Source: Candidatus Dormiibacterota bacterium
GTDB lineage: Bacteria > Chloroflexota > Dormibacteria > Dormibacterales > Dormibacteraceae
NCBI GenBank assembly: GCA_003151935.1
Contig: PLYZ01000012.1
Span: 321 to 36,886, forward strand
DNA: 36,566 bases
Reading direction: 5' to 3'
Position 1 is the first letter of the stretch; every line of letters begins with the position of its first letter. Shown in pieces: positions 13,310 through 35,146 of the stretch. The notes under the pieces are model-generated. The model was given only the letters and a program-made list of their open reading frames with translations. It was not told the DNA's origin and did no database searches. The position numbers and the translations under genes were made by a program.

Positions 13310-14686
13310 GTGAATCAAGACCAGATCTGGTCACAGGTTCAGGAGGAGCTCCGCTTTCAGCTTGCCAAGCGGACCTATGACATGTGGCTGAAAAACACAT
13401 CGGTGGTTTCAGCCGACGGCGGTACATTTCGGATCGGAGTACCAAGCAAGCTTGCCAAAGACTGGCTCGAAGACCGGTTCTCCGGCCTGATCCAGGAAAC
13501 CCTTCAAGCGGTCACCGGATCAGAGGTCGACATCGATTTCGTAATTTCGCCGACGGGTCATCGGCCCGCGCTTTCGAGTGTCGACGGCGACTTCGGCCGC
13601 GTGTCCGAGAATGGGCACGACAATCAAGTCGAGGCGGTACCGGACGCGCCGGCCATCCCCCCGTCGGAGCTCAATGCCCGCTTCCGATTCTCATCTTTCG
13701 TCGTCGGGCACAACTCGCAATTTGCTCACGCCGCAGCCAAAGCGGTTGCCGAGGCACCAGGTGACAGCTACAACCCGCTGTTCCTCTACGGAGGCGTCGG
13801 ACTTGGCAAGACTCACCTCATGCATGCGATCGGTCATGAGGTCCACGATCGCTTTCCTCGCAAGCGCGTCGTCTACCTGACATCTGAACAGTTCACCAAC
13901 GAGGTGATCAGCTCGATCGCGACCGCACGCATGGGCGAGTTCCGCCACAAGTACCGGACGGTGGACGTCCTCCTGATCGACGACGTTCAGTTCCTCGCGG
14001 GCAAGGACCGCACGAAAGAAGAGTTCTTCCATACATTCAATGCGCTGCACGAGATCAACAAGCAGATTGTCATCTCGTCCGACCGGCCGCCCAAGGAAAT
14101 CCCGACGCTGGAGGACAGGCTTCGTTCGAGGTTCGAATGGGGACTGATCGCCGACATCCAGTCTCCGGACTTTGAAACCCGCCTCGCCATCCTCCACTCC
14201 AAGCTCGGCGAGAACACCAGCTTGATCCCGGAAGAAGTCCTCAACTTCATCGCGCACAAGGTGCAGCGGAACATCCGCGAGCTGGAGGGAGCGCTGACGC
14301 GGGTTCAGGCCTTCGCCGCGGTTCACCAGCGCCAGGTCGATGAAGAGGAGGCGGCCAGACTGCTGGCAGACATCATCCCCGCGGGGACTCGAAAGCCCAT
14401 CAACGTCGAGCGCATTCAGGCGCTCGTCGCCGACTACTACAACGTCACGCTCGAAGACATGAAGAGCAAGCGCCGCGACAAGCACATCGTTTTTCCACGC
14501 CAGGTCGCCATGTTCCTCGTGCGAGAGGAGACGCCTTCATCCCTGCCGGCGATCGGCAAGGCGTTCGGCGGCCGAGACCACACGACAGCGCTGCACTCGA
14601 TTGAAAAGATCGCCAACGAGCTGAAGGAGGACGAGCGGTTGAGATACGAGGTGCAGGCGATCCGCGAGCGCCTTTACGTGCAGTGA
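13310..14686 (+). CDS. dnaA: Chromosomal replication initiator DnaA
   Basis: The 458-residue protein has the four DnaA domains. Domain I begins QIWSQVQEELRFQLAKRTYD and has WLKNT; a variable linker follows. The AAA+ domain has Walker A GGVGLGKTHL, Walker B LLIDDVQFLAGKD, the sensor region VISSDRPPKEIPTLEDRLRS and the arginine-finger region. Domain IV contains the box-binding signature FGGRDHTTALHSIEKI. It opens oriC in the ATP-bound form and loads the helicase. GTG 13310 is preceded by AAGGAG with a seven-base spacer. Flanking spacers on both sides carry DnaA-box-like sites, consistent with autoregulation and an adjacent origin. Confidence 0.98.
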   Translation: MNQDQIWSQVQEELRFQLAKRTYDMWLKNTSVVSADGGTFRIGVPSKLAKDWLEDRFSGLIQETLQAVTGSEVDIDFVISPTGHRPALSSVDGDFGRVSENGHDNQVEAVPDAPAIPPSELNARFRFSSFVVGHNSQFAHAAAKAVAEAPGDSYNPLFLYGGVGLGKTHLMHAIGHEVHDRFPRKRVVYLTSEQFTNEVISSIATARMGEFRHKYRTVDVLLIDDVQFLAGKDRTKEEFFHTFNALHEINKQIVISSDRPPKEIPTLEDRLRSRFEWGLIADIQSPDFETRLAILHSKLGENTSLIPEEVLNFIAHKVQRNIRELEGALTRVQAFAAVHQRQVDEEEAARLLADIIPAGTRKPINVERIQALVADYYNVTLEDMKSKRRDKHIVFPRQVAMFLVREETPSSLPAIGKAFGGRDHTTALHSIEKIANELKEDERLRYEVQAIRERLYVQ

Positions 14687-14927
14687 TGATGCTTTCCACA
14701 GTTTGTTCAAACCGCCTGGGGACGTACCACCCGATTACCGCCGGCGGCCAAATCGTCCCCAGGCCCTCAACAGGGCTCAGCTCATCGGAGGACCTTTACC
14801 CAGACCTTTTGCACCAAACCGGACGATCTGTAAATGATCTCGACATCCACAGTCCGCACAGCGCTTACTGTTATCGACTACGGATAAGTTCAATTAAGAG
14901 AATCTCTATCAACGGGGGACAACTGAC
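14687..14927. other. dnaA-dnaN intergenic region, candidate origin (part 2) with AT-rich patch
   Basis: This 241-base spacer holds CTTTCCACA (14692-14700), ACATCCACA (14843-14851) and the mirrored pair TTATC (14871-14875) and GGATAA (14882-14887). About 14865-14912 is clearly richer in A/T than its surroundings and could serve as a DNA unwinding element. An 11-base inverted repeat, GCCTGGGGACG (14714-14724) and CGTCCCCAGGC (14754-14764), encloses 29 bases. A GGGGG run at 14914-14918 serves the dnaN start. An 82-codon ORF here is not credible as a gene. Confidence 0.55.
14714..14764. repeat. 11-bp inverted repeat downstream of dnaA
   Basis: GCCTGGGGACG at 14714-14724 is perfectly complementary to CGTCCCCAGGC at 14754-14764, with a 29-base loop. 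The core CGTCCCCAGG also occurs at 13246-13255 upstream of dnaA. There is no T-tract after the right arm, so an intrinsic terminator is not obvious; a protein-binding site is as likely. Confidence 0.55.
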
Positions 14928-16073
14928 TTGAATTCGAAAGTATTAGCTGCCCAGATGAGGGTCACCTGCAGGCCGTCGGTGTTGGGTCAGGCATTGCAAG
15001 TGGTTTCGCGAGCGATCTCCAGCCGGACCACCCTGCCCATCCTGAACAACATCCTCATCGAGACGACTTCGGAGGGGCTCGCGCTCACCGCCACCAACCT
15101 GGAGATCGGCATTCGCAAGCTGGTACCGGCAGAGGTGGCGATGGAAGGCGCGACCACCGCGCCGGCCAGGCTGCTGACCGATTTCGTCGGGACCCTGCCA
15201 GACCAGGACCTCGAGCTGGCGCTAGACGGTGCGAGCCAGTCGCTCAGCCTGCGTTGCGCGCGTTTCGACACGCACATCAAGTGCATCGAGGCCGAGGAGT
15301 TCCCCCCAGGCCCGCGGCCCGACGAGGGCGACCGTCTCGAGGTTGCCCTGGACGAGCTGGTCAGTGCGGTCGAGCAGACGCAGATGGCGGCCTCGACAGA
15401 CGAAGCCCGGCCCGTCCTGACCGGGGTGCTGGTCCTGATCCAGGGAGGCAGCCTGACCCTGGCCGCGACCGATGGTCACCGGCTTGCGGTGCGCAAGCTT
15501 GCCGCCAACGGCCCCGCCGACCTGGAAGCCAGCCTGATTGTCCCGGCCCGGGCCCTCGCCGAGCTTTCGAGGGTGTTGAAAGGCGAGCCTGGGAAGGTCG
15601 AGGTGATCATCTCGAAGGCCCGCAACCAGATCTTCTTCCGGGCGGGCACCTCCGAGCTTACCTCGAGGCTGATCGACGGAAAGTATCCCAACTACGCACA
15701 GGTTATCCCCACCAAAAGCTCAACCAAGGTGCGGGTGTCCACGAGCGAGCTCACGCAGACGGTCCGCGCCGTGTCGCTCTTCGCCCGTGACAGCGCGAAC
15801 GTCATACGGGTCAAGGCGCAGGCCGGTGCGCTGATCCTTTCAGCGACCACCAACGAGGTTGGGGACAGCAAGGCGGAGATGGCCGCCGACGTCGATGGCT
15901 CCGACATCCAGATCGCGTTCAACGCCCGCTACGTCCTGGATGCCCTGGGAGTGATCGGGGAGGACGAGGTCGAGCTGCTGTTCGACGGCCCCCTGAGCCC
16001 CGGGCTCCTCCGACCGCCGGGCAAGGAGCACTACCTGTACGTGATCATGCCCGTGCGGGTCGCGATGTCCTGA
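14928..16073 (+). CDS. dnaN: DNA polymerase III beta subunit (sliding clamp)
   Basis: The 381-residue protein shows the three repeated clamp domains: RPSVLGQALQVVSRAISSRT and LPILNNILIE at the start, LTGVLVLIQGGSLTLAATDG with HRLAVRK in the middle domain, and the C-terminal LLFDGPLSPGLLRPPGKEHY followed by LYVIMPVRV. The ring dimer tethers polymerases and many partners to DNA. TTG 14928 has GGGGG nine bases upstream; the ATG at 14955 is a plausible alternative that still includes the whole first domain. It lies in the standard dnaA-dnaN-recF order. Confidence 0.97.
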   Translation: MNSKVLAAQMRVTCRPSVLGQALQVVSRAISSRTTLPILNNILIETTSEGLALTATNLEIGIRKLVPAEVAMEGATTAPARLLTDFVGTLPDQDLELALDGASQSLSLRCARFDTHIKCIEAEEFPPGPRPDEGDRLEVALDELVSAVEQTQMAASTDEARPVLTGVLVLIQGGSLTLAATDGHRLAVRKLAANGPADLEASLIVPARALAELSRVLKGEPGKVEVIISKARNQIFFRAGTSELTSRLIDGKYPNYAQVIPTKSSTKVRVSTSELTQTVRAVSLFARDSANVIRVKAQAGALILSATTNEVGDSKAEMAADVDGSDIQIAFNARYVLDALGVIGEDEVELLFDGPLSPGLLRPPGKEHYLYVIMPVRVAMS

Positions 16074-16090
16074 GGATGTCCTAAGGCGGA

Positions 16091-17176
16091 GTGCGACTCC
16101 GCAGGGTGCGACTCAGAAATCACCGTAACTACGCCCAGCTGGACCTCACCCCTGGGCCAGGGGTGAATGTCTTCATCGGCGCCAACGGGCAGGGCAAAAC
16201 CAACTTGCTCGAGGCGGTCGCGATGCTTGCCCTCTCGTCCTCTCCCCGGGCGCGGCGCGAGCTCGAGCTCGTAGGCCCCGTCGCGCCAATGGCGAGAATC
16301 GAGGCTGAGGTCGAAAGCGGAGGGATCACAGCCGAGCTCGCCATCACCCTGACCGTGGAAGGCGACCGGGCGCGGCGAGTGATCGAGGTCGACGGTGTCC
16401 GGCGCAGGGCCTTCGATCTACCCGGCCGCTTCCGGGTCACCCTGTTCTGGCCGGACGACCTTGGCCTCATCAAGGCCGGACCCGAGCTGCGACGCCGGTT
16501 CCTCAACCAGATGCTGGTCCAAATCGAGCCGGGCTACGCCCGCGCCCTGGCCGGGCTGAAACGGGTCCTCGAGCAGCGCAACAGCCTCCTCAAGCGGATC
16601 GCCGCGGGCGAGGAGGGCGGAGACGTCCTGGACGTGTGGAATCAGGAGCTGATCCGGCTCGGAGGCGAGGTGGCGGCGGCCCGATCGGCGGCGGTCCTGG
16701 AGCTGCAGCCGGAGGCAGCCCGTTACCATGCCGAAATCGCCGGTGGCGAGCGCCTGGATATCCGCTACGAGGGGCCTCCCAAGGATCTGGCCGAGGCTGT
16801 GCATAACTCGCTGGCGGAAGACCTCCGGCGGGGGTCCACGAGCGTCGGGCCGCATCACGACGACCTGCGCGTTCTGCTCGAGGGTCAAGACGCACGCGCC
16901 TACAGCTCGCAGGGGCAACAGCGCACGGCGGTGGTGAGCCTGAAGCTGGCTGAGGCGGCTCTGGTGGCCAGGCGCACGGGCGAGCGCCCCGTACTCCTGC
17001 TGGACGATGTTCTGTCCGAGCTCGACGCCGAACGCAGGGCCGCCCTCCTGAGGCAGGTCGGCGGCGAAGGCCAGGTCATCATCACGTCGGTCGAGGCTGG
17101 CCCTTTCCCTCCCGAGCTCATCGCCAATGCGATGGTCTGGACCGTCATCGAAGGCAGGATCGAAGCCTGTGGATAA
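16091..17176 (+). CDS. recF: DNA replication and repair protein RecF
   Basis: The 361-residue SMC-like ATPase starts MRLRRVRLRNHRNYAQLDL and has Walker A FIGANGQGKTNLLEAVAML, the D-loop/signature region YSSQGQQRTAVVSLKLAEA and Walker B VLLLDDVLSELD. RecF with RecO and RecR loads RecA at gaps. GTG 16091 lies 17 bases after the dnaN stop; a nearly repeated GTGCGACTC occurs at the first codons and again a few codons later. The last eight bases overlap dciA. Confidence 0.97.
   Translation: MRLRRVRLRNHRNYAQLDLTPGPGVNVFIGANGQGKTNLLEAVAMLALSSSPRARRELELVGPVAPMARIEAEVESGGITAELAITLTVEGDRARRVIEVDGVRRRAFDLPGRFRVTLFWPDDLGLIKAGPELRRRFLNQMLVQIEPGYARALAGLKRVLEQRNSLLKRIAAGEEGGDVLDVWNQELIRLGGEVAAARSAAVLELQPEAARYHAEIAGGERLDIRYEGPPKDLAEAVHNSLAEDLRRGSTSVGPHHDDLRVLLEGQDARAYSSQGQQRTAVVSLKLAEAALVARRTGERPVLLLDDVLSELDAERRAALLRQVGGEGQVIITSVEAGPFPPELIANAMVWTVIEGRIEACG
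17168..17176 (-). promoter_or_regulatory. Perfect DnaA box at the recF/dciA junction
   Basis: TGTGGATAA on the plus strand is the exact complement of TTATCCACA, and the only perfect consensus copy I saw. It also contains the dciA GTG start and the recF TAA stop, so coding constraints could explain part of it. Confidence 0.45.
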
Positions 17177-17468
17177 ATTGGGCAATATCCTGCCGAGAGT
17201 GCTGCGCCGCCAGCCCGGCGGCGCAAGGCTGATGGGCACCCAGGTCGCCTCGGCATTTCGAGCTGTGATCGGGGCGGAGCCGGCCGGTCTGTGCGACGAG
17301 ATCGAGCTCCATTCCGGCACGCTCGTGGTCACCACCTCCAGCCCGGCGCTGGCCCATCAGCTGCGGCTGGATTCCGAGGCCATTCTCGGCCGGCTGAACG
17401 GTCTCGAGCTGGGGCGCAAGGTTCGGGCGCTTCGGGTCCGAATCGGCCACTCCACACCGGCGCAATGA
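17169..17468 (+). CDS. dciA: DciA-like DUF721 protein, probable helicase loader
   Basis: The 99-residue protein begins MDKLGNILPRVLRRQPGG and contains the DUF721 pattern FRAVIGAEPAGLCDEIEL, GTLVVTTSSPALAHQLRLD and LNGLELGRKVRALRVRIG. DciA interacts with the replicative helicase DnaB in bacteria lacking DnaC/DnaI-type loaders. Position directly after recF is the same as in Actinobacteria and supports the call. GTG 17169 overlaps recF by eight bases, and the stop overlaps the helicase start by four (ATGA). The sequence is shorter than many DUF721 proteins, but covers the KH-like core. Confidence 0.87.
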   Translation: MDKLGNILPRVLRRQPGGARLMGTQVASAFRAVIGAEPAGLCDEIELHSGTLVVTTSSPALAHQLRLDSEAILGRLNGLELGRKVRALRVRIGHSTPAQ

Positions 17469-20191
17469 GCACCCGCCTGGGACCCGAACAGCGCGCGGCC
17501 GCCGCCATCGGGGGCGGTCCGATCCGCGTGGTCGCCGGGGCCGGCACCGGTAAGACGGCGGTCATCGCAGAGCGCTTCAGCCGGCTGGTCGCCGGCGGAT
17601 TGTCTCCGGCTTCGATCCTCGTCATGACCTTCACCGAACGCGCCGCGGCGGAGATGCGCCAGCGGATCGAAGAGCGGATCGGCGCCGCTGCTCCCGCCGT
17701 GGGGACGTTTCACTCGATCGCCCTCGGGTGGCTGCGTGCGGACGGCCGCACAGTGGGGGTCCCGGCCGGCTTTCGAATTCTCACCGGCGCCGACCGCTGG
17801 ATTGTGGCCCGCGAGCTCATGTGGCAGCTGGGCGACAACGCCCTGACGGGCGACGAGCGCCCGGACGACCTGGTTGCGCCCGCACTGCAAATGCTCGAGC
17901 GGATGAAGCAGGAGCTCGTACCCATCGGAAGACTCGCTGCCTGGGCGACCTCGACCGACGACGCGGAGCGTGGCGAGCTGATGCGCGCTTGCGTCCGGTT
18001 GTTTCGCGCGTACGAAAGAGAATGCAGGAAGCGCCGTCTTCTCGACTTCGAGGACCTCCTCCTGCTCACGGTCCGGATGCTGGAGGAAAACCCGAAGCTC
18101 CTGGACACATACACCGCTCGCTACATGAGCGTGCTGGTCGACGAGTACCAGGACCTCAACCTGGCGCAGGAACGCCTGGTCGAGCTCGTCGCCTCGAGGA
18201 CCCAGCCGTTTGTCGTCGGCGACGACGATCAATCGATCTACCGCTTTCGAGGGGCTTCCCGGGCCAGCCTGGAAAGGTTCGTCGCCAGCCTTCCAAACAC
18301 CAGCACCATGACCATGGGCCGGAACCGGCGAAGCTCGCACCAGATCGTGGCTGCCGCAGCCACGCTGATCGGGAATAACGCCGGCAGGCTTCCCAAACAA
18401 CTGGCTTCCGCCAAGCCAGGACCCAAGGTCGAGCTGTGGAGCTGCCCCGACGGAATGACCGAAGCGGCGTCCATCGCCACCCAGGCGGCGGATCTTGTTG
18501 AACGTGGAACAGCGCTGCGCGAGATCGCGGTGCTCTGCAGGACCAATGCGATCGCGCGGCCGATCGCGTCGGCTCTGGCGGCGCGGGGACTGCCCCACGT
18601 GGTGATCGGAGGCCGCGGCTTTCACGACCGCGCGGAGATCAGAGACGTCATCGCGCTGCTGCGGGTGCTGCGTGACCCCTGCGACGTGGTGGCAATCGCC
18701 CGAGCGATCACCCGCCCGCCTTTGAGCCTTGATCCTTCGAGAGCGCTGGCCGTGCTCAGGGATCGCGGGGAAAAGCTGCCCCTCGACGCCATCAAGGCCT
18801 CGAAGCCCGCGGCGCTGTTCGCGAGCCTCCTGGAGGAGCTTGCCTCGGCCGCGACCCGGCTCGACGTGCGTGACCTGTTCTTCGAGCTGATGAACCGCAC
18901 CCGCTACCTCGAAGCAGTCGGCGACACGCTGGAGGCAGGCGAGGCAGCGCGTGTCACCGCCAACGTGAGTCGCTTTGCCGAGATGATCGCCGAGTTCTGT
19001 GAAACCGAGGTCGATCGGTCGCTCACGGCTTACATGCAGCACCTGGACCTCGTCCTCCTGTCCGGAGAGGACGAGGAGCCGGCTCCGGTCGAGGCGGCGG
19101 ACGACGCGATCCACGTCATGACCATCCACCAGGCCAAAGGGCTCGAGTTCGACGCCGTCTTCGTGCCCGGGCTGGTCGAAGGACGTCTGCCGCAGTCGGG
19201 TAGGTCGCCTCGTTTCGAGCTGCCCCCTTCCGTCCTCGAACCGCTTGTGCGCGGCCGTGAGGACGTGGTCGCGGAGGAACGGCGGCTGCTCTACGTCGCC
19301 ATGACTCGAGCCAGGAACCAGCTGTACCTGACCCGCGCCTCGCACTACGAAGGCGGCCGGCGATGGAGAGATTCGCGGTTTCTCGAGGAGGTGCGCGCCG
19401 CGGGCGCGCGAACGGTTTGCGAGCGTACGTTCGAAGCCGTAACGCAGCCTCCCGCGCGCCGAATGGCGACGAGGAAACCCGGCCAGGTCGTGCTGTCGTA
19501 CAGCGCGATCGCCGCCTACCGGGAGTGCCCTCGCCAGTACTGGTTCCGACAGGAGCAGCGGCTCCCGGCAGCGCAGAGCGCGGAGGCCGTGCATGGCGTG
19601 ATCCAGCACGAGGTCCTGCGCCAGGCGGGCGAAGCTCGAAGGAGCGGCCGCCAGGTTACCGCCAAGGCGCTGAAGTCGATTCACGAAGGGGTCTGGCTCG
19701 TGAGCGCGTTTCCGGATCCGCGGCGCGCTGCCACGTTCAAGCGGATCGGCGCGGCACAGCTGGAGGCCTATCGCAGCCGGGGAGGATTCGACGCACCGCC
19801 CGAGTTTCTCGAGCATCCCTTCAGCGCCGCGGTCGACGGATGGACGCTTCGCGGCGTCATCGACCGCATCGATCGCACGGACTCAGGCTGGAGGATCGTC
19901 GACTACAAGAGCGGCCGGCCGCTGACTCGCCGCCGGCGCGACCTGCAAGTCGCGCTGTATGCGCTCGGCGCAAGCAATGCGCTGCGACTGGACCCCATCG
20001 AGCTGGAGGTCGTCTACCTGGCGACGGGTGAGACGGTGAAGGTCGAGAAGGTTGGAGACCTCGTGACCGACGCCACCAGCCAGGCCGCGGAGGTGGCAGC
20101 GGGAGTTAGAGAGGGGATGTTCGAAGCGCGACCGGAGCGGCGGCGCTGCCGGCTCTGCCCTTACCGGCTCGCCTGCGCCGACGCTCTGTAG
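17465..20191 (+). CDS. UvrD/PcrA-type helicase fused to a PD-(D/E)XK nuclease domain with probable Fe-S cluster
   Basis: The 908-residue protein has all superfamily 1A motifs: VVAGAGTGKTAVIAERF (Walker A), FTERAAAEMRQRI, LVDEYQDLN (II), GDDDQSIYRFRGA (III), IHQAKGLEFDAVFVPGLVEG (V) and RRLLYVAMTRARNQLY (VI). After about residue 680 comes an AddB/Cas4-like nuclease: YRECPRQYWF, the catalytic GVIDRIDRTD and RIVDYKSGRPL, and a terminal CRLCPYRLAC. The four cysteines (one in YRECP, three at the end) fit a 4Fe-4S staple as in AddB or AdnA/B. It probably acts in double-strand-break resection. ATG 17465 overlaps dciA; the longer frame to 17291 lies within dciA. No partner subunit is visible. Confidence 0.92.
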   Translation: MSTRLGPEQRAAAAIGGGPIRVVAGAGTGKTAVIAERFSRLVAGGLSPASILVMTFTERAAAEMRQRIEERIGAAAPAVGTFHSIALGWLRADGRTVGVPAGFRILTGADRWIVARELMWQLGDNALTGDERPDDLVAPALQMLERMKQELVPIGRLAAWATSTDDAERGELMRACVRLFRAYERECRKRRLLDFEDLLLLTVRMLEENPKLLDTYTARYMSVLVDEYQDLNLAQERLVELVASRTQPFVVGDDDQSIYRFRGASRASLERFVASLPNTSTMTMGRNRRSSHQIVAAAATLIGNNAGRLPKQLASAKPGPKVELWSCPDGMTEAASIATQAADLVERGTALREIAVLCRTNAIARPIASALAARGLPHVVIGGRGFHDRAEIRDVIALLRVLRDPCDVVAIARAITRPPLSLDPSRALAVLRDRGEKLPLDAIKASKPAALFASLLEELASAATRLDVRDLFFELMNRTRYLEAVGDTLEAGEAARVTANVSRFAEMIAEFCETEVDRSLTAYMQHLDLVLLSGEDEEPAPVEAADDAIHVMTIHQAKGLEFDAVFVPGLVEGRLPQSGRSPRFELPPSVLEPLVRGREDVVAEERRLLYVAMTRARNQLYLTRASHYEGGRRWRDSRFLEEVRAAGARTVCERTFEAVTQPPARRMATRKPGQVVLSYSAIAAYRECPRQYWFRQEQRLPAAQSAEAVHGVIQHEVLRQAGEARRSGRQVTAKALKSIHEGVWLVSAFPDPRRAATFKRIGAAQLEAYRSRGGFDAPPEFLEHPFSAAVDGWTLRGVIDRIDRTDSGWRIVDYKSGRPLTRRRRDLQVALYALGASNALRLDPIELEVVYLATGETVKVEKVGDLVTDATSQAAEVAAGVREGMFEARPERRRCRLCPYRLACADAL
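18496..18511. other. parS-like 16-mer inside the helicase gene
   Basis: TGTTGAACGTGGAACA matches 14 of 16 bases of TGTTCCACGTGGAACA; only positions 5 and 6 differ. It lies about 5 kb downstream of the dnaA start, a usual distance for chromosomal parS, and intragenic parS sites are common. Binding by the ParB encoded at 7300 is inference. Confidence 0.45.
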
Positions 20192-25012: not shown

Positions 25013-26551
25013 TTAGAGGTGCGACTTGAGCCGGGCCCTCATCTCCTGGGCGAGCTGTTCGAGCCGCGAGGAATCCACGAAGAGCAGCGAGATGCTCGGG
25101 ATCTGGTCGATCGCTGTTTCCACGCCGCCGAGCGACGGATCGGCCGCGCCGAGTATGTCTTTCACCTTGCGCGCCCGGTTGCCCAGGGCGTCTTCCGCCA
25201 TCGCCTGCAGTTCCGCGACGATGGTCGCCCAATCGAGCTGCGGTCCGGATGACTGTGGCGGCGTGGTCGGCGCGACCTGCACCGAGGGCGGTGTAGGTTG
25301 CGTGTAGTTGGAATAGCCGCCGGTCGGGATCTGCGCGGTCGGCGGCTCGGCGGGCATGACCGGCATCGTCGGGTTGGTCGGAATGACGGGCTCGGGCGCG
25401 GCCGCCACCGGGGGCGCCGGGGGCATTGGCGCGGCGACCTGCGAGCCGCGCGAGCCCCGCAGCCCGCCCACGATCTCGTCGACATCGAGGGGTGGATGCT
25501 TCACGGCGTCGGCCGATTTGACCTCGATCATCGCCGCGGGGTCGTCGCAGAGCGCAAGCGCCCGGTCGGGCTTGTCGGAAATGTCCCGGGATTCGCTGGT
25601 GTAAGCGCCGGCGAGCTCGCCGTCGGCAAGGATGATCACGCCGGTGCCACCCGTCGAGCGGATCATCACGCTGCCGCTCAACTTGCGGTCGCTGAGGAAC
25701 TTGAGAAGCGCCTTCATGTCCACCCAGGCCGCGTACAGCTCGGTGTACATCGGCCTGGAAACAGTCAGCTCGTAAAGGCCGTCGATCAGCTCCGGCGAGA
25801 GTCCCACCACGTCCAGCACCCCGTGGCCGCTCGTCACGTCGTCGTTGAACCGCTGCAGCGCCTGCTTGCCGAGCACGAGACTGCCGGCGTCCGCGGCCCC
25901 GTCGTACAAGCACTCGAGCGCCGACCCCTCGCGGAACAGGATCAGTCCCGAGGCTTCGTCGGTCAGCAAGCGCACGTAGCCCGTGTAGCCCTCCTTTTCG
26001 AGGGTCGTGATCAGGCGCGGGAAATCCACGAACGACGTTTTGAGGGAGTCGTAGATGATCTGCCCCGCGGGAACGGGGATAGGTTCGCGACCGTGCTTCG
26101 GCTGCGGGCGGTGCTTCACGCCGCGTCTCGGCTGGGGTGCTTCCACCTTTCTCTCCGGTTCAACATGATCTCTGCGATCAACCCGTGCCTCGATCCTCTC
26201 CGCCTTGGCCTCGACCTGGGCCGCGGGCTCGGCAGCGCCCGGCACGTTGGGCGCTGACTCAGCAGTCTGGACCAACTCCGAGATGCCGGCTTTGACCGAT
26301 TCGTCGGCCGGCAGCTTGGCTTTGGCGTCAAACTCGAAATCGCCCCTGGTCCAGTGAAGGGCGGAGACGACGGCGTCGTCGCCTGCCTTTCCATCGCTCT
26401 GGGCGTGGAAAAGGTGGCCGAACAGAAAATAAAGCGAGGCCGACTGTCCGTTCCCATTGCGGACGGTAAGGGTACCTGTGGAGCGCTCGCCTTGAGCAGC
26501 CTCCAGAAGTGATCGAAGGGAACTTTCGGCCAGTGAGCCGTGCGATTGCAA
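25013..26551 (-). CDS. DUF4388 domain protein with central sensor-like region
   Basis: The product of about 512 residues begins with a DUF4388 domain (SLAESSLRSLLEAAQGERST, SASLYFLFGHLFHAQSDG, DAVVSALHWTRGDFEFDAKA), a module found in signalling and gliding-type proteins. After a charged linker, a second related fold occupies roughly residues 175-370 (FPRLITTLEKEGYTGYVRLL, GLILFREGSALECLYDG). A proline-rich linker follows, and then a helical C-terminal segment. It is predicted cytoplasmic. TTG 26551 has AGGAG eight bases upstream; TTG 26557 is closer to the site and less well spaced. Function is unknown, and its nearest neighbours are divergent. Confidence 0.8.
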   Translation of the reverse strand: MQSHGSLAESSLRSLLEAAQGERSTGTLTVRNGNGQSASLYFLFGHLFHAQSDGKAGDDAVVSALHWTRGDFEFDAKAKLPADESVKAGISELVQTAESAPNVPGAAEPAAQVEAKAERIEARVDRRDHVEPERKVEAPQPRRGVKHRPQPKHGREPIPVPAGQIIYDSLKTSFVDFPRLITTLEKEGYTGYVRLLTDEASGLILFREGSALECLYDGAADAGSLVLGKQALQRFNDDVTSGHGVLDVVGLSPELIDGLYELTVSRPMYTELYAAWVDMKALLKFLSDRKLSGSVMIRSTGGTGVIILADGELAGAYTSESRDISDKPDRALALCDDPAAMIEVKSADAVKHPPLDVDEIVGGLRGSRGSQVAAPMPPAPPVAAAPEPVIPTNPTMPVMPAEPPTAQIPTGGYSNYTQPTPPSVQVAPTTPPQSSGPQLDWATIVAELQAMAEDALGNRARKVKDILGAADPSLGGVETAIDQIPSISLLFVDSSRLEQLAQEMRARLKSHL

Positions 26552-26681
26552 GAGCAATTCTCCTGAGATCGGCCCAGCCCGATCGGGGGATTAAGAGAAA
26601 GTTAGTATAGATATCGAGATTAGATCCGCGCGCTCGGAGCCGCCAGACCTACCGCTTGCGCCCAAGCCTACGCCCGCGCGG
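26552..26681. promoter_or_regulatory. Divergent promoter region between DUF4388 and histidine phosphatase genes
   Basis: The stretch 26591-26625 is markedly A/T-rich and contains TAGTATAGAT, which could serve as a -10 element for the plus-strand gene. I see no convincing -35 partner. AGGAG for the minus-strand gene lies at 26560-26564. Confidence 0.35.
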
Positions 26682-27308
26682 TTGATCCTCGTTCGCCACG
26701 GGCAGTCCACCTGGAATCGCGAACATCGCATCCAGGGCCAGCTCGATCCTCCCCTCTCCGGCGAGGGCCGGCGGCAGGCCGAGCTGCTCGGGCGCCGGCT
26801 TGCCGGCCGCCGGTTCACGGGCTTTTTTGCGAGTGACCTGAAGCGTGCCTTCGAGACCGCCGAGGCGATCGGCTCGGCGATCGGCCTTGACCCTGAGCCC
26901 CGCCCCGCCCTCCGCGAGATCTACCTCGGAGAGTGGGAGGGTCTGCGCACCGAGGAGATCGCCCAGAGGTTTCCCGAAGCGTGGGCGAGATGGAACGACG
27001 AGCCGGACTGGGACGTCGTGCCTGGCGGGGAAGGAGCCGATCGGTTCGAAACCCGCGTCGTGGCCGCGCTGGACGCAATTCTCGAGGGCCATTCGCATGG
27101 AGACCTGCTGGTGGTCACCCACGGTGGCGTCATCCAGGTCGCGCTGCATCGCGCGGTCGGCCGCCCGAGTCACGGGCTCTTCCCCTTCAAGATCCAGAAC
27201 GCATCCATCTCGCTGATCGAGCATCCCGATGGCCGGATGGTCATCGCCGGCTCCAACGACATCGCTCACCTTGAGCCGGCACTCGTCACCGAACCAGGCC
27301 CGGGATGA
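26682..27308 (+). CDS. Histidine phosphatase (phosphoglycerate mutase) family protein
   Basis: The 208-residue frame has the RHG motif LVRHGQSTWNREHRIQGQLD with the catalytic histidine, the acid/base region LREIYLGEWEGLRTEEIAQR, and the second histidine in VVTHGGVIQVALHRAV. This fits the dPGM-like phosphatase group, which includes alpha-ribazole phosphatase and broad-specificity phosphatases, so the substrate is not certain. TTG 26682 lies only a few codons before the motif and has no ribosome binding site. The frame continues upstream to a TAA at 26592 with no ATG, GTG or TTG, so the true start may be a rarer codon. The stop overlaps the next start by four bases. Confidence 0.88.
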   Translation: MILVRHGQSTWNREHRIQGQLDPPLSGEGRRQAELLGRRLAGRRFTGFFASDLKRAFETAEAIGSAIGLDPEPRPALREIYLGEWEGLRTEEIAQRFPEAWARWNDEPDWDVVPGGEGADRFETRVVAALDAILEGHSHGDLLVVTHGGVIQVALHRAVGRPSHGLFPFKIQNASISLIEHPDGRMVIAGSNDIAHLEPALVTEPGPG

Positions 27309-28276
27309 TGAGTGAGGCTTCGCGGTGGGACGGCGAGCTCGAAGAGCGAAGCTCACCCGCTCCCCTTCTGCAGTCGTGGGCCTGGGGAGAAGTCCAGGCG
27401 CGCGCGGGATGGAGTGTCGAGAGGGTCCGCCTCAAAGGCGGCGCTATGGCAAGTGTCCAGGTGCGCTCGGTGGGCCCGGCGCGTGAGGCGTACATCCCAC
27501 GCGGTCCCGTGCCGGCGACCGGGGAAGCCGTCGACGCGCTCGTGGAATGGGCACGGGACGCCAGGATGGCCCGCCTGCTCGTGGAACCAGAAGGGCCGAC
27601 GGCTCTCGAGGAAGCGCTGTCAGAACGGCGGTTTGCCGCGACCGCGCCGACGCAGCCGCAGCACACCCGCATCATCGAGCTGCGTCCTCCTGGCGAGCTA
27701 CTGAAGAGCTTCCGGCACGGGCGTAGGTACAACATCCGCGCGGGCCTGCGTCGCGGTGTGGTCGTCAAGGAAGGCAAGGACGCAGCCGAGCTGGGGCGCC
27801 AATCGGCTGCGGTCGAGCGGCGCGAGTCGATCCATCTGCCGGACCGCGGCTACTACGCGCTTTTGCTCGAGCTCTTGCCCTGGTGTCGCACCTACGTCGC
27901 CTACCAGGAGGCCGCCGATGAGGCGCTCGCCACAGTCCTGGTCGCTCGCCATGCCGGCCGCGCCTACAGCCTGTTCGCGGGACGCAGCGGCGCTCATCCT
28001 GAGCTGATGGGCAACGACCTCGCCTGGTGGTCTGCGATCAGCTCCGCCGCGGAGGCCGGCTGCCGGGACTTCGACCTCTGGGGCGTGCCGCCTCCTGGCG
28101 CCGGGCCGGACCATCCCTGGCACGGTCTGGGCTTCTTCAAGTCCGAGTTCGGAGGCGAGGAGGTGACCTATCCCGGAGCCTGGGAGCTGGTGCTTTCGGG
28201 AGCTGGGGCGAAGCTCATCGCCCTCGAAAAGAAGTCACGAGCCTACGTTCGTGGGCTGAAACGCAACATCTCCTAA
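27305..28276 (+). CDS. FemAB/FemX-like aminoacyltransferase
   Basis: The 323-residue protein has two tandem GNAT-like halves, as in FemX and lipid II:glycine glycyltransferases. Features are LQSWAWGEVQARAGWSVERV, the YIPRGPV strand, RIIELRPPGELLKSFRHGRR, YNIRAGLRRGVVVKEG and GCRDFDLWGVPPPGAG, with GLGFFKSEFGGEEVTYPG near the end. These enzymes add amino acids from aminoacyl-tRNA to lipid II, forming the peptidoglycan cross-bridge, though exported-lipid relatives exist. ATG 27305 overlaps the preceding phosphatase gene by four bases. It fits a Lys/Orn-type wall, consistent with the altered MurE downstream. Confidence 0.88.
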   Translation: MMSEASRWDGELEERSSPAPLLQSWAWGEVQARAGWSVERVRLKGGAMASVQVRSVGPAREAYIPRGPVPATGEAVDALVEWARDARMARLLVEPEGPTALEEALSERRFAATAPTQPQHTRIIELRPPGELLKSFRHGRRYNIRAGLRRGVVVKEGKDAAELGRQSAAVERRESIHLPDRGYYALLLELLPWCRTYVAYQEAADEALATVLVARHAGRAYSLFAGRSGAHPELMGNDLAWWSAISSAAEAGCRDFDLWGVPPPGAGPDHPWHGLGFFKSEFGGEEVTYPGAWELVLSGAGAKLIALEKKSRAYVRGLKRNIS

Positions 28277-28306: not shown

Positions 28307-29026
28307 GTGGCTGCGGTAGCGGATTCTTCTCGGAAAGTCCTGATCGTCGACCCGGACGCCGCGACGCGCCGGGAGGTGCGCGCCGCGTGCGAGCAGGACG
28401 GTTACCAGGTGCTCGAGGCCGATGGGGCCGGTGACGCGCTGCGCCAGGTCGAGCAGTCACATCCCAGCCTCGTCCTGCTGGAGGTCACGCTCCCCGACGG
28501 CGCGGGCTTCGACGTATGCAGGGAGCTGCGCAAGGTGGATCCTGCCGTGCCGGTGATCATGATGAGCGCTCGCTCCGAGGAGATCGACGTCGTCGTCGCC
28601 CTGGAGATCGGAGCGGACGACTACGTGGGCAAGCCGCTGCGTTTGCGCGAGCTGGTGGCTCGCATGACTGCCCACCTGAGGCGCACGCGCCTCGAGTCGG
28701 CCGAGGCCATGCGCAGCCGGCTCGAGTTTCGCGACCTCGTGATCGACGTCAACGAGCGGCGGACGTACAAGTCGGGCAAGGAGGTGGAGCTCACCCACAC
28801 GGAGTTCGACCTGCTGACGTTTCTCGCGAGCAACGCGGGCAAGGTGTTGAGCCGCGAAAAGATCCTGAACTCGATCTGGGGCTATGAGTACCCGATCGAG
28901 ACCCGCGTGATCGACGTGCACATTCGCAACCTGCGACGGAAGATAGAAAGTCAGCCCTCGCATCCTTATTACATCCTGGCCGTCCCGGGCATCGGCTACC
29001 GGTTCACCAACGCCCGGCCGGCTTGA
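28307..29026 (+). CDS. OmpR-family response regulator with Glu at the phospho-acceptor position
   Basis: The 239-residue protein has a receiver domain (about 1-125) and a C-terminal winged-helix DNA-binding domain with VELTHTEFDLLTFLASNAGK, REKILNSIWGYEYPIETRV and VDVHIRNLRRKIE. Two receiver positions are altered. The phospho-acceptor, normally Asp in LLDLMLPD, is Glu59 (LVLLEVTLPDG; codon GAG 28481-28483). The acidic pair is D15-P16 (LIVDPDAA) rather than two acids. The switch serine S87 and lysine K109 (DDYVGKPL) are kept. Such an acceptor cannot be phosphorylated normally and may mimic the active state. No sensor kinase is adjacent. GTG start follows the hairpin above; the 3' end overlaps folK by 23 bases. 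Confidence 0.93.
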   Translation: MAAVADSSRKVLIVDPDAATRREVRAACEQDGYQVLEADGAGDALRQVEQSHPSLVLLEVTLPDGAGFDVCRELRKVDPAVPVIMMSARSEEIDVVVALEIGADDYVGKPLRLRELVARMTAHLRRTRLESAEAMRSRLEFRDLVIDVNERRTYKSGKEVELTHTEFDLLTFLASNAGKVLSREKILNSIWGYEYPIETRVIDVHIRNLRRKIESQPSHPYYILAVPGIGYRFTNARPA

Positions 29027-29432
29027 TAGGGGTATTTACCCCAAGCTCCCGAAGCGATTCGCGCACGAAGTCCCGCTCGCCTATGCGCGGGTGTGGGATC
29101 ACGAGGTCGCGCTGTTTCAGCCGCTGATCCCCGAACAGCAGTATGTCGACGTCGATGACGCGAGGCCCCCAGCGCGGAGCCCCCTTGCGCCCTCCTTCGG
29201 CCTCGACTTCTTTGGCCGCTTTCAACAATTGGCGGGGCGTACCGAGCCAGTCCACCTCGACGGCCTGGTTCAAGAAGCGCGGCTGGTCGACGACGCCCCA
29301 TGGCTCGGTCTCGATGACCCGGCTTTGACGCAGGATGCGCGCTCCTTTTTGACGCAGCCGCCTGCGCGCGGCGCTCAGGTTGCGGGAACGCCTTCCGAGG
29401 TTCGAGCCAAGGCCCAGGTAAGCCGTCGTCAA
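29004..29432 (-). CDS. folK: 2-amino-4-hydroxy-6-hydroxymethyldihydropteridine pyrophosphokinase (HPPK)
   Basis: The 142-residue enzyme transfers pyrophosphate from ATP to hydroxymethyldihydropterin in folate synthesis. It has the N-terminal YLGLGSNLGRRSRNLSAARR, IETEPWGVVDQPRFLNQAVE and the metal-binding GPRVIDVDILLFGDQ, then VIPHPRIGERDFV. Length is slightly short but complete. ATG 29432 overlaps the folP stop by four bases, so folP-folK are co-translated. folB is not visible. The tail overlaps the convergent response regulator gene. Confidence 0.95.
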   Translation of the reverse strand: MTTAYLGLGSNLGRRSRNLSAARRRLRQKGARILRQSRVIETEPWGVVDQPRFLNQAVEVDWLGTPRQLLKAAKEVEAEGGRKGAPRWGPRVIDVDILLFGDQRLKQRDLVIPHPRIGERDFVRESLRELGVNTPIKPAGRW

Positions 29433-30238
29433 CGCATGCGGTCGGCGATCCGGACCACGCGCGTCATCTCTCGCACGTCGTGAACGCGGACGACGTCGGT
29501 CCCGCGCAGGATCGCGGCGGTCACGGTGGCGGCCGTGCCCTCGATTCGCTCGTCGACCGGCAGATCCAGGGCCTTGCCGATGAACGATTTACGCGACGTT
29601 CCGATCAGAATCGGTTGACCCAGCTCGCGCAGCTCTTCGAGTCGCCGCATGACGACCCAGTTGTCCTCCGCGGTCTTGCCGAAGCCGATCCCGGGATCGA
29701 TGAGCACTCGCTCGCGCGGCACGCCGGCTCCCAGTCCACGATCGATCGAGTCGCGGAGGAATCGCTTGATCTCGTCCATCAGGTCGCCTGAATAGTCCGT
29801 CCCGTCCTGGTTGTGCATCACGACCAGCGCGCAGCCCCTGCTTGACGCGAGCTGGGCCAGAGCCGGCGAGCGCGTCAAGCCCCAGATGTCGTTGAGCATC
29901 GTGGCGCCGGCCGCAACCGCCGCTTCCGCCACCTCGAGCTTGTAGGTGTCGATCGAGATCGGGACCTCTGTCTCACGCACGAGTCGGGCGATGACCCCTT
30001 CGGTGCGCGCGATCTCCTCGCCGGTGCTGATCGGCTGGTGGCCGGGGCGGGTCGACTCGCCTCCCACGTCGAGCATGTCCGCACCCTCGCGCATCATGCG
30101 CACTCCCTGCGACACAGCGCGCTCTTCATCCGAACCGAGGCCGTCACCGCTGAAAGAGTCGGGCGTTACGTTGATGATCCCCATCACGTAGGTCCGCGAG
30201 CCCCACTCGAACCTCCGCCCACCGATGTCGGCGATCAT
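29429..30238 (-). CDS. folP: Dihydropteroate synthase
   Basis: From ATG 30238 the protein has 269 residues, a normal length. It has the pterin-binding TIM barrel motifs VMGIINVTPDSFSGDGLG, DMLDVGGESTRPGHQPIS, ATMLNDIWGL, VLIDPGIGFGKTAEDNW, PILIGTSRKSFIGK and the final VVRVHDVREM. The enzyme joins p-aminobenzoate to the pterin pyrophosphate made by FolK. The open frame continues to 30334, but that extension lies across the divergent murE start and has no family match. Start-to-start distance from murE is 25 bases, so the divergent promoters must overlap the gene ends. Confidence 0.95.
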   Translation of the reverse strand: MIADIGGRRFEWGSRTYVMGIINVTPDSFSGDGLGSDEERAVSQGVRMMREGADMLDVGGESTRPGHQPISTGEEIARTEGVIARLVRETEVPISIDTYKLEVAEAAVAAGATMLNDIWGLTRSPALAQLASSRGCALVVMHNQDGTDYSGDLMDEIKRFLRDSIDRGLGAGVPRERVLIDPGIGFGKTAEDNWVVMRRLEELRELGQPILIGTSRKSFIGKALDLPVDERIEGTAATVTAAILRGTDVVRVHDVREMTRVVRIADRMR

Positions 30239-30263
30239 CCGCCGATTATGCTGCCCACCAGCA

Positions 30264-31757
30264 ATGAAACTGGGCGAACTGGCCGGCGGAGTGCCCGGCT
30301 CCACCCTGGATGGCAACGGCGACGTCGAGATCACAGGCCTCGCTTATGACTCGCGGCGTGTGAAGCCCGGTGACCTGTTCGTCGCGGTCGAAGGGCTGCA
30401 GGCCGACGGCCATGCTTTCGTCGGCGACGCTGTCGCCCGGGGAGCGGTCGCCGTGGCGGTCGATCGCGATGTCACGCTGCCACAGGGGACGCCCGTCTTG
30501 AGAATGGGCTCCACGCGGGTCGGGCTGGCCCAGGTGGCGGCGCAGTTCTACGACCGGCCGTCGCGGAAGCTCAGGGTGGCCGGCGTCACCGGGACGGATG
30601 GAAAGACGACGACCACCCACATGGCCGAGCATGTGCTGCAGGCCAGCGGCGTGGTGGCCGGGGCGATGAGCACCGTGTCTTTCACCGGCAGCGGCGGCGA
30701 GGTGGACAACCTCAGCGGCCAGACCACGATGGAGGCGCCTGAGGTCCAGGCCTGGCTCGCGCGGATGGTCGAAGGGGGTGTCGCGTGCGCGGTCATCGAG
30801 ACCACGTCGCACGCGCTCGTGCAGGAGCGCGTCGGGGCTTGCGACTTCGATGTCGCGGCGTTCACCAATGTCGGCCACGACCACCTCGACTACCACGCCA
30901 CCTGGGATGAATACCTCGAAGCGAAGGCTCGCCTGATCGACCTGACCGCGAGCTCGGCGGACAAGGGAATCGACAAGACCGCCGTCCTGAACCGCGACGA
31001 CGCGAGCTACGAGCGCCTTGCGCGCCGCCCGATCGCCCGCCGCTGGACCTATGGATTGACGACGGCCTCCGACCTCCATCCGCTCGACCTCAATGTCACC
31101 GGTACAGGCTCGCGCTTTCGCATGAGGACCCCGCTAGGCGAGACCGACGTGACGCTCCACGTGCCCGCCCGTTTCAACATCTACAACGCGCTCTGCGCAG
31201 CCGGCGTTTGCCTGGCCCTCGGCGTGTCCCTCGAGTCCGTGGGCACGGGGCTCGCCGGTTTCGAAGGCGTGCGCGGCAGGCTCGAGCCGGTCGACGTGGG
31301 CCAGGACTTTCGCGTCTACATCGACTTCGCGCACTCGGCTGGCGCGCTGGCCAGCGCCCTCGCCGAGCTGCGTCCCTTCACTTCCGGGCGCCTGATCGTC
31401 GTGTTCGGCTCTACCGCGCGCTCCGATCACGACCGTCCCGGCATGGGACGCGCGGCGGCCGACTTCGCGGACTTCTTCATCATCACCACCGACGATCCTC
31501 TCGACCAGGATCCAGTCGAGATCGCCCGCGACGTGCAGATGGGCGCGGAGGGCAAGGCGCCTGGACACGACTACGAGATCGTCATCGATCGGCGCGCCGC
31601 GATCCGCCGAGCGATCGAGCTGGCCCGGCCCGGTGACTGCGTGCTGCTCGCCGGCAAAGGCCACGAGCGGTCGATGCGAATGGCGTCCGGCTCTGAGCCG
31701 TGGGACGAGCGGGCGGAAGCCGAGGCGGCGATCAGGGAACGGCTCGCGATTCGCTAG
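30264..31757 (+). CDS. murE: UDP-MurNAc-L-Ala-D-Glu: diamino acid ligase (MurE)
   Basis: The 497-residue protein matches MurE: an N-terminal GLAYDSRRVKPGDLFVAVEG, the ATP loop VAGVTGTDGKTTTTHMAEHV, SHALVQERVGACDFDVAAFT, the lysine expected to be carbamylated in EYLEAKARLIDLTA, and the C-terminal LIVVFGSTARSDHDRPGMGR. The motif that recognises the added diamino acid, DNPR in DAP-adding enzymes, reads DDPL here (residues 410-413, bases 31491-31502), which argues against meso-DAP and for lysine or ornithine. ATG 30264 follows AGCA without a strong ribosome site; in-frame ATG 30225 overlaps folP and is less likely. The 3' end overlaps thiS by 26 bases. Confidence 0.92.
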   Translation: MKLGELAGGVPGSTLDGNGDVEITGLAYDSRRVKPGDLFVAVEGLQADGHAFVGDAVARGAVAVAVDRDVTLPQGTPVLRMGSTRVGLAQVAAQFYDRPSRKLRVAGVTGTDGKTTTTHMAEHVLQASGVVAGAMSTVSFTGSGGEVDNLSGQTTMEAPEVQAWLARMVEGGVACAVIETTSHALVQERVGACDFDVAAFTNVGHDHLDYHATWDEYLEAKARLIDLTASSADKGIDKTAVLNRDDASYERLARRPIARRWTYGLTTASDLHPLDLNVTGTGSRFRMRTPLGETDVTLHVPARFNIYNALCAAGVCLALGVSLESVGTGLAGFEGVRGRLEPVDVGQDFRVYIDFAHSAGALASALAELRPFTSGRLIVVFGSTARSDHDRPGMGRAAADFADFFIITTDDPLDQDPVEIARDVQMGAEGKAPGHDYEIVIDRRAAIRRAIELARPGDCVLLAGKGHERSMRMASGSEPWDERAEAEAAIRERLAIR

Positions 31758-33890: not shown

Positions 33891-34292
33891 TCAAGACGAA
33901 TTTTGATTGAGTGATTCCACCAGTAGATTCACTCGCCTCGCAATGTCGTCGCGGATTTCGCGCACCTGTGCGACGGGAAGGCCGCTGGGATCAAGGAGGT
34001 CCCAATCGACATAGCGCTTCCCCGGGATCACCGGACACGCGTCGCCGCAGCCCATGGTGATGACGACATCGGCCCATTGCGCAAGCTCAGTGGTCAGCAA
34101 TTGCGGTTTGCGATCGCTCAGGTCGATCCCTTCCTCGCGCATCACAGTGACGACGCTCTCGTGCACGCGATCGGCGGGCGTCGTGCCGGCTGAGCGCGCT
34201 TCGTGCAAGCCGCCCGCCGCGCGCTCGAAGAGCGCCTCGCTCATCTGCGAGCGACCGGCATTGTGGAGGCACACGAAGAGAACTCTTGACAC
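33891..34292 (-). CDS. arsC: Arsenate reductase, low-molecular-weight phosphatase type
   Basis: From GTG 34292 the protein has 133 residues. It has the phosphatase loop CX5R in LFVCLHNAGRSQMSEALF with nucleophile C8, then SAGTTPADRVHESVV, WADVVITMGCGDACPVIPGK and RYVDWDLLDPSGLPVAQVRE. The second pair of cysteines in MGCGDACP is close to the thioredoxin- or mycothiol-linked enzymes of Actinobacteria. It reduces arsenate to arsenite. The start shares a base with the pstA stop (TAGTG), so it belongs to the phosphate-transport operon. The longer open frame to 35048 is inside pstA in another frame and is not used. No arsenite exporter is visible. Confidence 0.93.
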   Translation of the reverse strand: MSRVLFVCLHNAGRSQMSEALFERAAGGLHEARSAGTTPADRVHESVVTVMREEGIDLSDRKPQLLTTELAQWADVVITMGCGDACPVIPGKRYVDWDLLDPSGLPVAQVREIRDDIARRVNLLVESLNQNSS

Positions 34293-35146
34293 TACAGCTG
34301 GCCGGCGAGCCGGATCTGGCGCCGCAGCACCCACCGGCTCAGCAGGTTGATGCCCAGCACCATCACGACCAGCACGAGCGCGGCGCCCCACGCCTGGTCT
34401 TGAAGGGATTTGTAGGGCAGGAGCGCGTACTGGTAGACCGTAAGCGGCAGGGCCTGCATGGCCTGCGTGGGGTCCACCTTGAAGAGCGTGTTGCCCAACG
34501 AGGTGAACAGGAGCGGCGCGGTTTCGCCGGATGCCCGCGCCACGGCCAGGAGCGCGCCGGTGATCACGCCGGGAGCCGCGGCCGGGAGGATGAGCTGGAG
34601 CGAGACACGCCAGCGCGGGAGGCCGAGGGCGAGCCCCGATTCGCGCAGTCCATGGGGGATGAGCGCGACCGCGCCTTCCGCCGTGCGAATGACGATGGGC
34701 AGCATCAGGATCGCAAGAGCGACCGAGCCCGCGATTCCGGAGAAGTGATGCACCGGAACGACCACCAGGGCATAGGCGAAGAGTCCGATCGCGATTGATG
34801 GAGTGCCGACCAGGACGTCGCTCGCGAGCCGGACCCAGCTCGCCCAGGGGTCGACCGCGTACTCGGCCACGTACACGCCGCCGAGGATTCCGACCGGGAT
34901 CGCCATCAACGAAGCCAGGCCGACCAGGATCCCAGTTCCGACGATGGCGTGGGCGATCCCGCCGCCTGGGATGCCAACCGGACGAAACGAGTTCGTGAAG
35001 AACTCCGGGTGGAGCACCGAAGGCAGGCCCCTGCTGACCGTGAACCACAGCACCAGGCCCAGCGGAATGAGCGCCAGGACGGTGAGCAGATACATGACCC
35101 CGAGCCAGGTCGTGCTTGCGAATCGCCGTCGGACGTTTCGATTCAT
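34292..35146 (-). CDS. pstA: Phosphate ABC transporter permease PstA
   Basis: From ATG 35146 the protein has 284 residues and about six membrane spans. The N-terminal span is TWLGVMYLLTVLALIPLGLV, and the permease loop region includes GTPSIAIGLFAYAL, IVIRTAEGAVALIPHGLRES and ARASGETAPLLFTSL, typical of PstA. With PstC it forms the channel of the high-affinity phosphate importer. The ATG overlaps the pstC stop by four bases. The following gene is arsC, not pstB; ATPase and PhoU genes are not in the window. Confidence 0.95.
   Translation of the reverse strand: MNRNVRRRFASTTWLGVMYLLTVLALIPLGLVLWFTVSRGLPSVLHPEFFTNSFRPVGIPGGGIAHAIVGTGILVGLASLMAIPVGILGGVYVAEYAVDPWASWVRLASDVLVGTPSIAIGLFAYALVVVPVHHFSGIAGSVALAILMLPIVIRTAEGAVALIPHGLRESGLALGLPRWRVSLQLILPAAAPGVITGALLAVARASGETAPLLFTSLGNTLFKVDPTQAMQALPLTVYQYALLPYKSLQDQAWGAALVLVVMVLGINLLSRWVLRRQIRLAGQL

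Follow-up and report, generated by a model that had tools for sequence, protein, structure and literature searches.

We propose that the gene at 28307–29026 encodes a descendant of a kinase-controlled OmpR-type regulator that has lost phosphoryl acceptance and most likely adopts an active dimeric state without phosphate. We give this reading a probability of roughly 70%. Independence from phosphorylation is strongly supported by the comparison of orthologous sequences, and constitutive activity is probable on the same grounds. We further infer constitutive dimerisation, DNA binding and control through the level of expression. All coordinates refer to the window, that is, the whole analysed stretch of 36,566 nucleotides from a Candidatus Dormiibacterota genome.

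The regulator and its locus

The features of the locus are listed below with the evidence for each.

25013–26557, minus strand: DUF4388 (PATAN-like) protein gene, divergent (Pfam; neighbour conserved in three families)
26558–26681, no strand: divergent intergenic region between the DUF4388 gene and gpm (footprinting; inverted repeat at 26567–26584, TAGTATA at 26603–26609)
26682–27308, plus strand: histidine phosphatase / phosphoglycerate mutase-like gene (gpm), probable first gene of the operon (Pfam, synteny)
27305–28276, plus strand: FemAB-like aminoacyltransferase gene, directly upstream of the regulator in the same direction with a 30-bp gap; conserved neighbour (Pfam)
28307–29026, plus strand: atypical response regulator of the OmpR/PhoB type, 239 aa, GTG start (translation, Pfam)
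28337–28666, plus strand: pseudo-receiver domain, residues 11–120 (Pfam Response_reg, 9.3e-27)
28349–28354, plus strand: D15-P16, acidic pair broken, with Pro as its second residue, DD2 (translation, orthologue alignment)
28481–28483, plus strand: E59 at the phospho-acceptor position (translation, orthologue alignment)
28565–28567, plus strand: S87, conserved Thr/Ser position, kept (orthologue alignment)
28631–28639, plus strand: K109-P110-L111, conserved Lys kept, Phe at K+2 replaced by Leu (orthologue alignment)
28775–29005, plus strand: winged-helix DNA-binding domain, residues 157–233 (Pfam Trans_reg_C, 2.7e-29)
29004–29432, minus strand: folK, convergent conserved neighbour (Pfam, synteny)
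29429–30334, minus strand: folP, conserved neighbour (Pfam, synteny)

The protein has the OmpR/PhoB domain order, Response_reg followed by Trans_reg_C, and both Pfam matches exceed the gathering cut-offs. The residues named in the sequence-only reading of this DNA (E59, D15-P16, S87 and K109) are exact in the translation, where they occur as V-D15-P16-D17, L58-E59-V60, S87 and K109. The domain is thus a receiver by profile with the acceptor Asp replaced by Glu, that is, an aspartate-less receiver or pseudo-receiver; in the canonical two-component set DD/D/T(S)/K, both DD2 and the acceptor D are replaced. The best NCBIfam matches are YycF/WalR (214.1 bits, cut-off 340) and MtrA (213.5 bits, cut-off 300). 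Identity with WalR/YycF or MtrA was rejected, since both scores are below the equivalog cut-offs.

The genome itself provided 58 receiver stretches, some of them overlapping or partial, that were aligned to the regulator. Nearly all the others have the canonical Asp, the exceptions being L086 (degenerate, in a hybrid kinase), L251 (a receiver-like frame) and a second copy of the regulator gene. The other aligned OmpR-type regulators of this genome are canonical.

No HATPase_c match was found within the 36.5-kb window, in agreement with the earlier statement that no kinase gene adjoins the regulator, and the latter is an orphan in this sense. The sole HATPase_c match on the contig (C62:38669-38998) lies outside the window, about 9.6 kb downstream of the regulator; the genome contains 39 such matches in total. 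Just past the window end, at about 8–10 kb downstream, there is a further receiver with a histidine kinase (L246, G000:C62:36700-39500), and receivers at comparable distances were seen in several genomes of the family (G005, G008, G016, G027).

Orthologues and active-site states

Orthologues were searched for in 61 related genomes and then in 110 genomes of the class, each genome usually yielding one high-scoring match. Orthology was defined by synteny in three families: f1, to which the window belongs, and two sister families, f2 and f3. The syntenic order comprises the divergent DUF4388 gene, (gpm)–femAB–regulator, and convergent folK–folP and murE, and is retained in whole or in part in all three. 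Genus g5 of f1 (two genomes, 92% complete) yielded no match of orthologue strength, and no close orthologues were evident beyond the class when 400 genomes of the phylum were searched.

In FastTree phylogenies the f1 regulators are monophyletic with the support of 0.93 for full-length proteins and 0.82 for the receiver alone, and not monophyletic on the tree of the DNA-binding domain alone, which is short and conserved.

At position 59, Glu is present in 36 of 38 f1 orthologues and Asp in the other two, both from genus g11. DD2 is Pro, Gly or Ala in 37/37 f1 proteins with intact N-terminus (L041, with a broken one, was left out of this count). Ser87 and Lys109 are each kept in 37/38. The K+2 residue (position 111) is Leu in 34 proteins, Ala in two and Val in two, and never Phe (0/38), while T+1 is mostly Ser. 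In contrast, all 29 orthologues from the sister families (17/17 from f2 and 12/12 intact ones from f3) have the canonical DD/D/S/K set with Phe at K+2, and T+1 is Ala in every one of them. The outgroup paralogues also have the canonical residues at DD2, D, K and K+2. Since these paralogues and both sister families carry Asp, Asp appears to be ancestral and Glu derived, and on the alignment the Asp-to-Glu change is a lineage-level one. The earlier suggestion of a phosphorylation-independent transcription factor is therefore supported at the level of sequence by Glu59 in 36/38 and loss of DD2 in 37/37 proteins; a strain-specific change, which Asp in orthologues would have betrayed, does not hold within f1, as Asp occurs only in the sister families and g11.

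The two g11 orthologues (L028, L030) keep Asp59 together with Ala at DD2 (A16) and Ala at K+2 (A111), which is either an intermediate or a reversion. Since g11 is the sister of g6, which bears Glu, the residue must have either originated on two occasions or been reverted in g11, with parsimony favouring neither. L043 from genus g12 (about 3575–4280 on the strand of its regulator) has Glu, with Ser replaced by Gly and Lys by Arg, its receiver being further degenerated. The series of orthologues at this one syntenic site is unusually complete, including canonical proteins, intermediates that keep Asp but have lost DD2, and proteins with Glu.

The divergence of f1 is concentrated in the receiver. 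Positions separating f1 from f2 and f3 together number 13 in the receiver and two in the DNA-binding domain, and seven f1-diagnostic positions (16, 59, 85, 86, 88, 89, 111) surround the phosphorylation pocket. The control comparison of f2 with f3 yielded 12 receiver and 12 DNA-binding positions, two of them in the pocket. Mean identity between f1 and f3 is 55% for the receiver and 80% for the DNA-binding domain, and the recognition-helix region is almost the same in all three families. Between closely related f1 members, receiver dN/dS (Nei–Gojobori) is mostly 0.004–0.14; two pairs exceed this, one at 0.22 and the other, L043–L048, which includes the further degenerated L043, at 0.38. Such low values indicate a receiver constrained by purifying selection and not decaying.

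The kinase context also differs between the families. In f3, a 370-aa PAS-HisKA-HATPase gene is located directly upstream of the regulator, and 11 of 12 f3 genomes contain this kinase at E ≤ 1e-50. At the same threshold, it is absent, relocated copies included, from the 37 f1, 8 f2 and 4 f4 genomes among the 61 searched. Either f1 and f2 lost the kinase, or f3 gained it. As the f2 regulators are canonical with no adjoining kinase, a missing neighbour kinase by itself is no sign of a dead receiver, and these orthologues are probably phosphorylated in trans.

Mechanism and alternatives

According to the proposed mechanism, substitution of the Mg2+-ligand Asp by Pro, Gly or Ala and of the acceptor Asp by Glu would have abolished phosphoryl uptake in the f1 receiver. 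Since DD2 is a direct metal binder and the acceptor Asp is lost as well, phosphotransfer is very unlikely. The pocket would have been retuned alongside (K+2 Phe to Leu, Ala or Val; T+1 Ala to Ser or Thr; T+2 Lys to Arg), and the retuned receiver would most likely be in, or easily reach, the active dimeric state without phosphate. In CheY, Phe at K+2 favours inactive conformations, and Leu, Ala, Val or Ile favour active ones (PMC12632262). The shift in this activating direction in all f1 members, together with the retained dimer face, favours phosphate-free activity. Residues E100, D104, D105, E115, R119 and R125 of this face (alpha4-beta5-alpha5) are invariant in the orthologue alignment, which is compatible with a constitutive dimer of the ChxR kind. 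Given that both these residues and the DNA-binding domain are kept, the regulator probably binds a DNA site of the ancestral type as a receiver-mediated dimer. Its output would be set by the amount of the regulator or by a partner, with no kinase involved.

Modelling of the receiver was proposed in the sequence-only reading; in an AlphaFold2 model with a mean pLDDT of 84.6, the fold is intact in both the receiver and the winged helix. The best full-length structural match of the monomer is MtrA 2gwr (TM 0.86/0.91), a closed, inactive form. The monomeric model is silent on dimers and does not favour the open state.

What makes the regulator active may be viewed differently. Glu59 itself might be the activating element, a natural phosphomimic perhaps contacting S87 and K109. 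This is plausible from the sequence, but we hold it only tentatively; it is a sub-case of the preferred reading, with which its confidence overlaps. Both S87 and K109 are retained (37/38 each) alongside Glu (36/38), Glu is the replacement in 26% of aspartate-less receivers, more than any other residue (PMC4395418), and it can partially activate many regulators (PMC12632262). However, the two f1 members with Asp share the class of K+2 change and the loss of DD2, Glu-bearing L043 lacks both Ser and Lys, ChxR is still active after replacement of its Glu (PMC4395418), and the Asp-to-Glu change alone is often insufficient for activation (PMC4395418, PMC12632262). A stepwise conversion of a switch to a constitutive regulator at one locus, with DD2 and Phe at K+2 lost on the f1 stem and Asp-to-Glu fixed separately or reverted in g11, seems to us rather doubtful; if true, K+2 rather than Glu would be the main source of activity. 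Somewhat less likely still is that the regulator, though independent of phosphorylation, is not constitutive, and is toggled between states by some other signal, such as a small ligand bound in the former pocket, redox state or a partner protein. The strong purifying selection on the receiver in most pairs and the pocket changes, fixed with no drift, would fit such an input, and partner proteins are known to control some pseudo-receivers, as MirA does Rem (PMC12632262). Yet a constitutive dimer predicts purifying selection equally, no conserved candidate partner was seen beyond the general neighbours, and femAB and the DUF4388 gene flank canonical orthologues too.

It is very improbable that a distantly encoded kinase still phosphorylates the regulator, be it on Glu or on a different residue. 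The 39 HATPase_c matches offer candidates, and the canonical f2 orthologues, probably phosphorylated in trans, manage with no adjoining kinase. Nevertheless, no intact f1 member has kept the Mg2+-binding DD2, both K+2 and T+1 have been altered, and phosphorylation of Glu is not known to play a part in bacterial signalling (PMC4395418). Finally, the genomes are metagenome assemblies and a few loci have broken N-termini (L041, L059, L192), so a sequencing error or a decaying pseudogene might be considered. The same state recurs in 36 independently assembled genomes, where the reading frames are intact and dN/dS is low, and the Glu59 codon, GAG in 35 of the Glu-bearing orthologues and GAA in one, is shared between independent assemblies, which excludes a sequencing error. 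Conservation and low dN/dS likewise rule out a strain mutation and a pseudogene.

Known systems and other features of the window

The regulator belongs to a known kind, the aspartate-less receiver regulators such as ChxR and HP1043/CosR, and fits the ALR/PsR definition, a PF00072 domain without key catalytic residues. In these proteins Glu is the commonest replacement and DD2 is lost more often than DD1 (PMC4395418, PMC12632262); about 2% of REC-OmpR/PhoB architectures are aspartate-less (PMC4395418). ChxR from Chlamydia trachomatis works without phosphorylation and shares with the regulator the OmpR/PhoB architecture, Glu at the acceptor position and the absence of several active-site residues (PMC4395418, PMC3960148). 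Unlike ChxR, the regulator keeps the conserved Ser and Lys, its phylum and gene neighbourhood are unrelated, and its dimer is only predicted; we do not claim orthology. In the CosR/CosS and HP1043 case (Helicobacter, Campylobacter), the CosS kinase adjoins an Asp-bearing regulator in some species, and in sister species without the kinase Asp is replaced (PMC3938529). The evolutionary pattern here, an absent kinase and a replaced acceptor compared with sisters, is the same, and Campylobacter CosR/CosS is a direct precedent for it. The replacing residue differs (Asn or Ser there, Glu here), and here either kinase loss in f1 or gain in f3 is possible. MtrA, WalR (YycF) and RpaB, which come nearest in NCBIfam score (MtrA in structure as well), are canonical phosphorylated regulators, unlike the window regulator.

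What activates pseudo-receivers has been called a major unknown (PMC12632262), and the value of the locus is that of an unusually clean orthologue series for asking this question. Canonical, intermediate and Glu-bearing orthologues occupy one locus, with a well-conserved DNA-binding domain and a likely cognate kinase in f3; hence the contributions of DD2, Glu and K+2 can be told apart with a handful of point mutations and exchanged domains in laboratory strains. The locus also adds a case of the CosR/CosS-type pattern from a little-studied phylum (the uncultured Dormibacterota lineage); we found no publications on two-component systems of Dormibacterota/Dormibacteria.

Phylogenetic footprinting of the divergent promoter revealed the TAGTATA heptamer, invariant in 30 family members, and the inverted repeat at 26567–26584 reads GATCGG/CCGATC. 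Both are probably promoter elements. In the genome, the 20-mer containing TAGTATA occurs only once; allowing mismatches, the repeat is no commoner in the window than by chance, and TAGTATA is missing upstream in the sister-family loci; therefore no regulon or operator is claimed. Neither footprinting nor the search of the own genome yielded a binding motif or regulon of the regulator.

Elsewhere in the window, dnaA (13310–14686), dnaN (14928–16073) and a RecF/SMC-like ATPase gene (16091–17176) are clustered at 13310–17176, which probably places the origin region of the chromosome within the window. The gene at 17291–20191 (plus strand) encodes a protein of 966 aa that joins a UvrD-like helicase to a PD-(D/E)XK nuclease at the C-terminus; the nuclease weakly resembles Cas4, and the protein is either AddA-like or another helicase–nuclease fusion. 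At 33891–35048 (minus strand) there is a 385-aa ORF, the C-terminal part of which matches low-molecular-weight phosphatase / arsenate reductase (ArsC).
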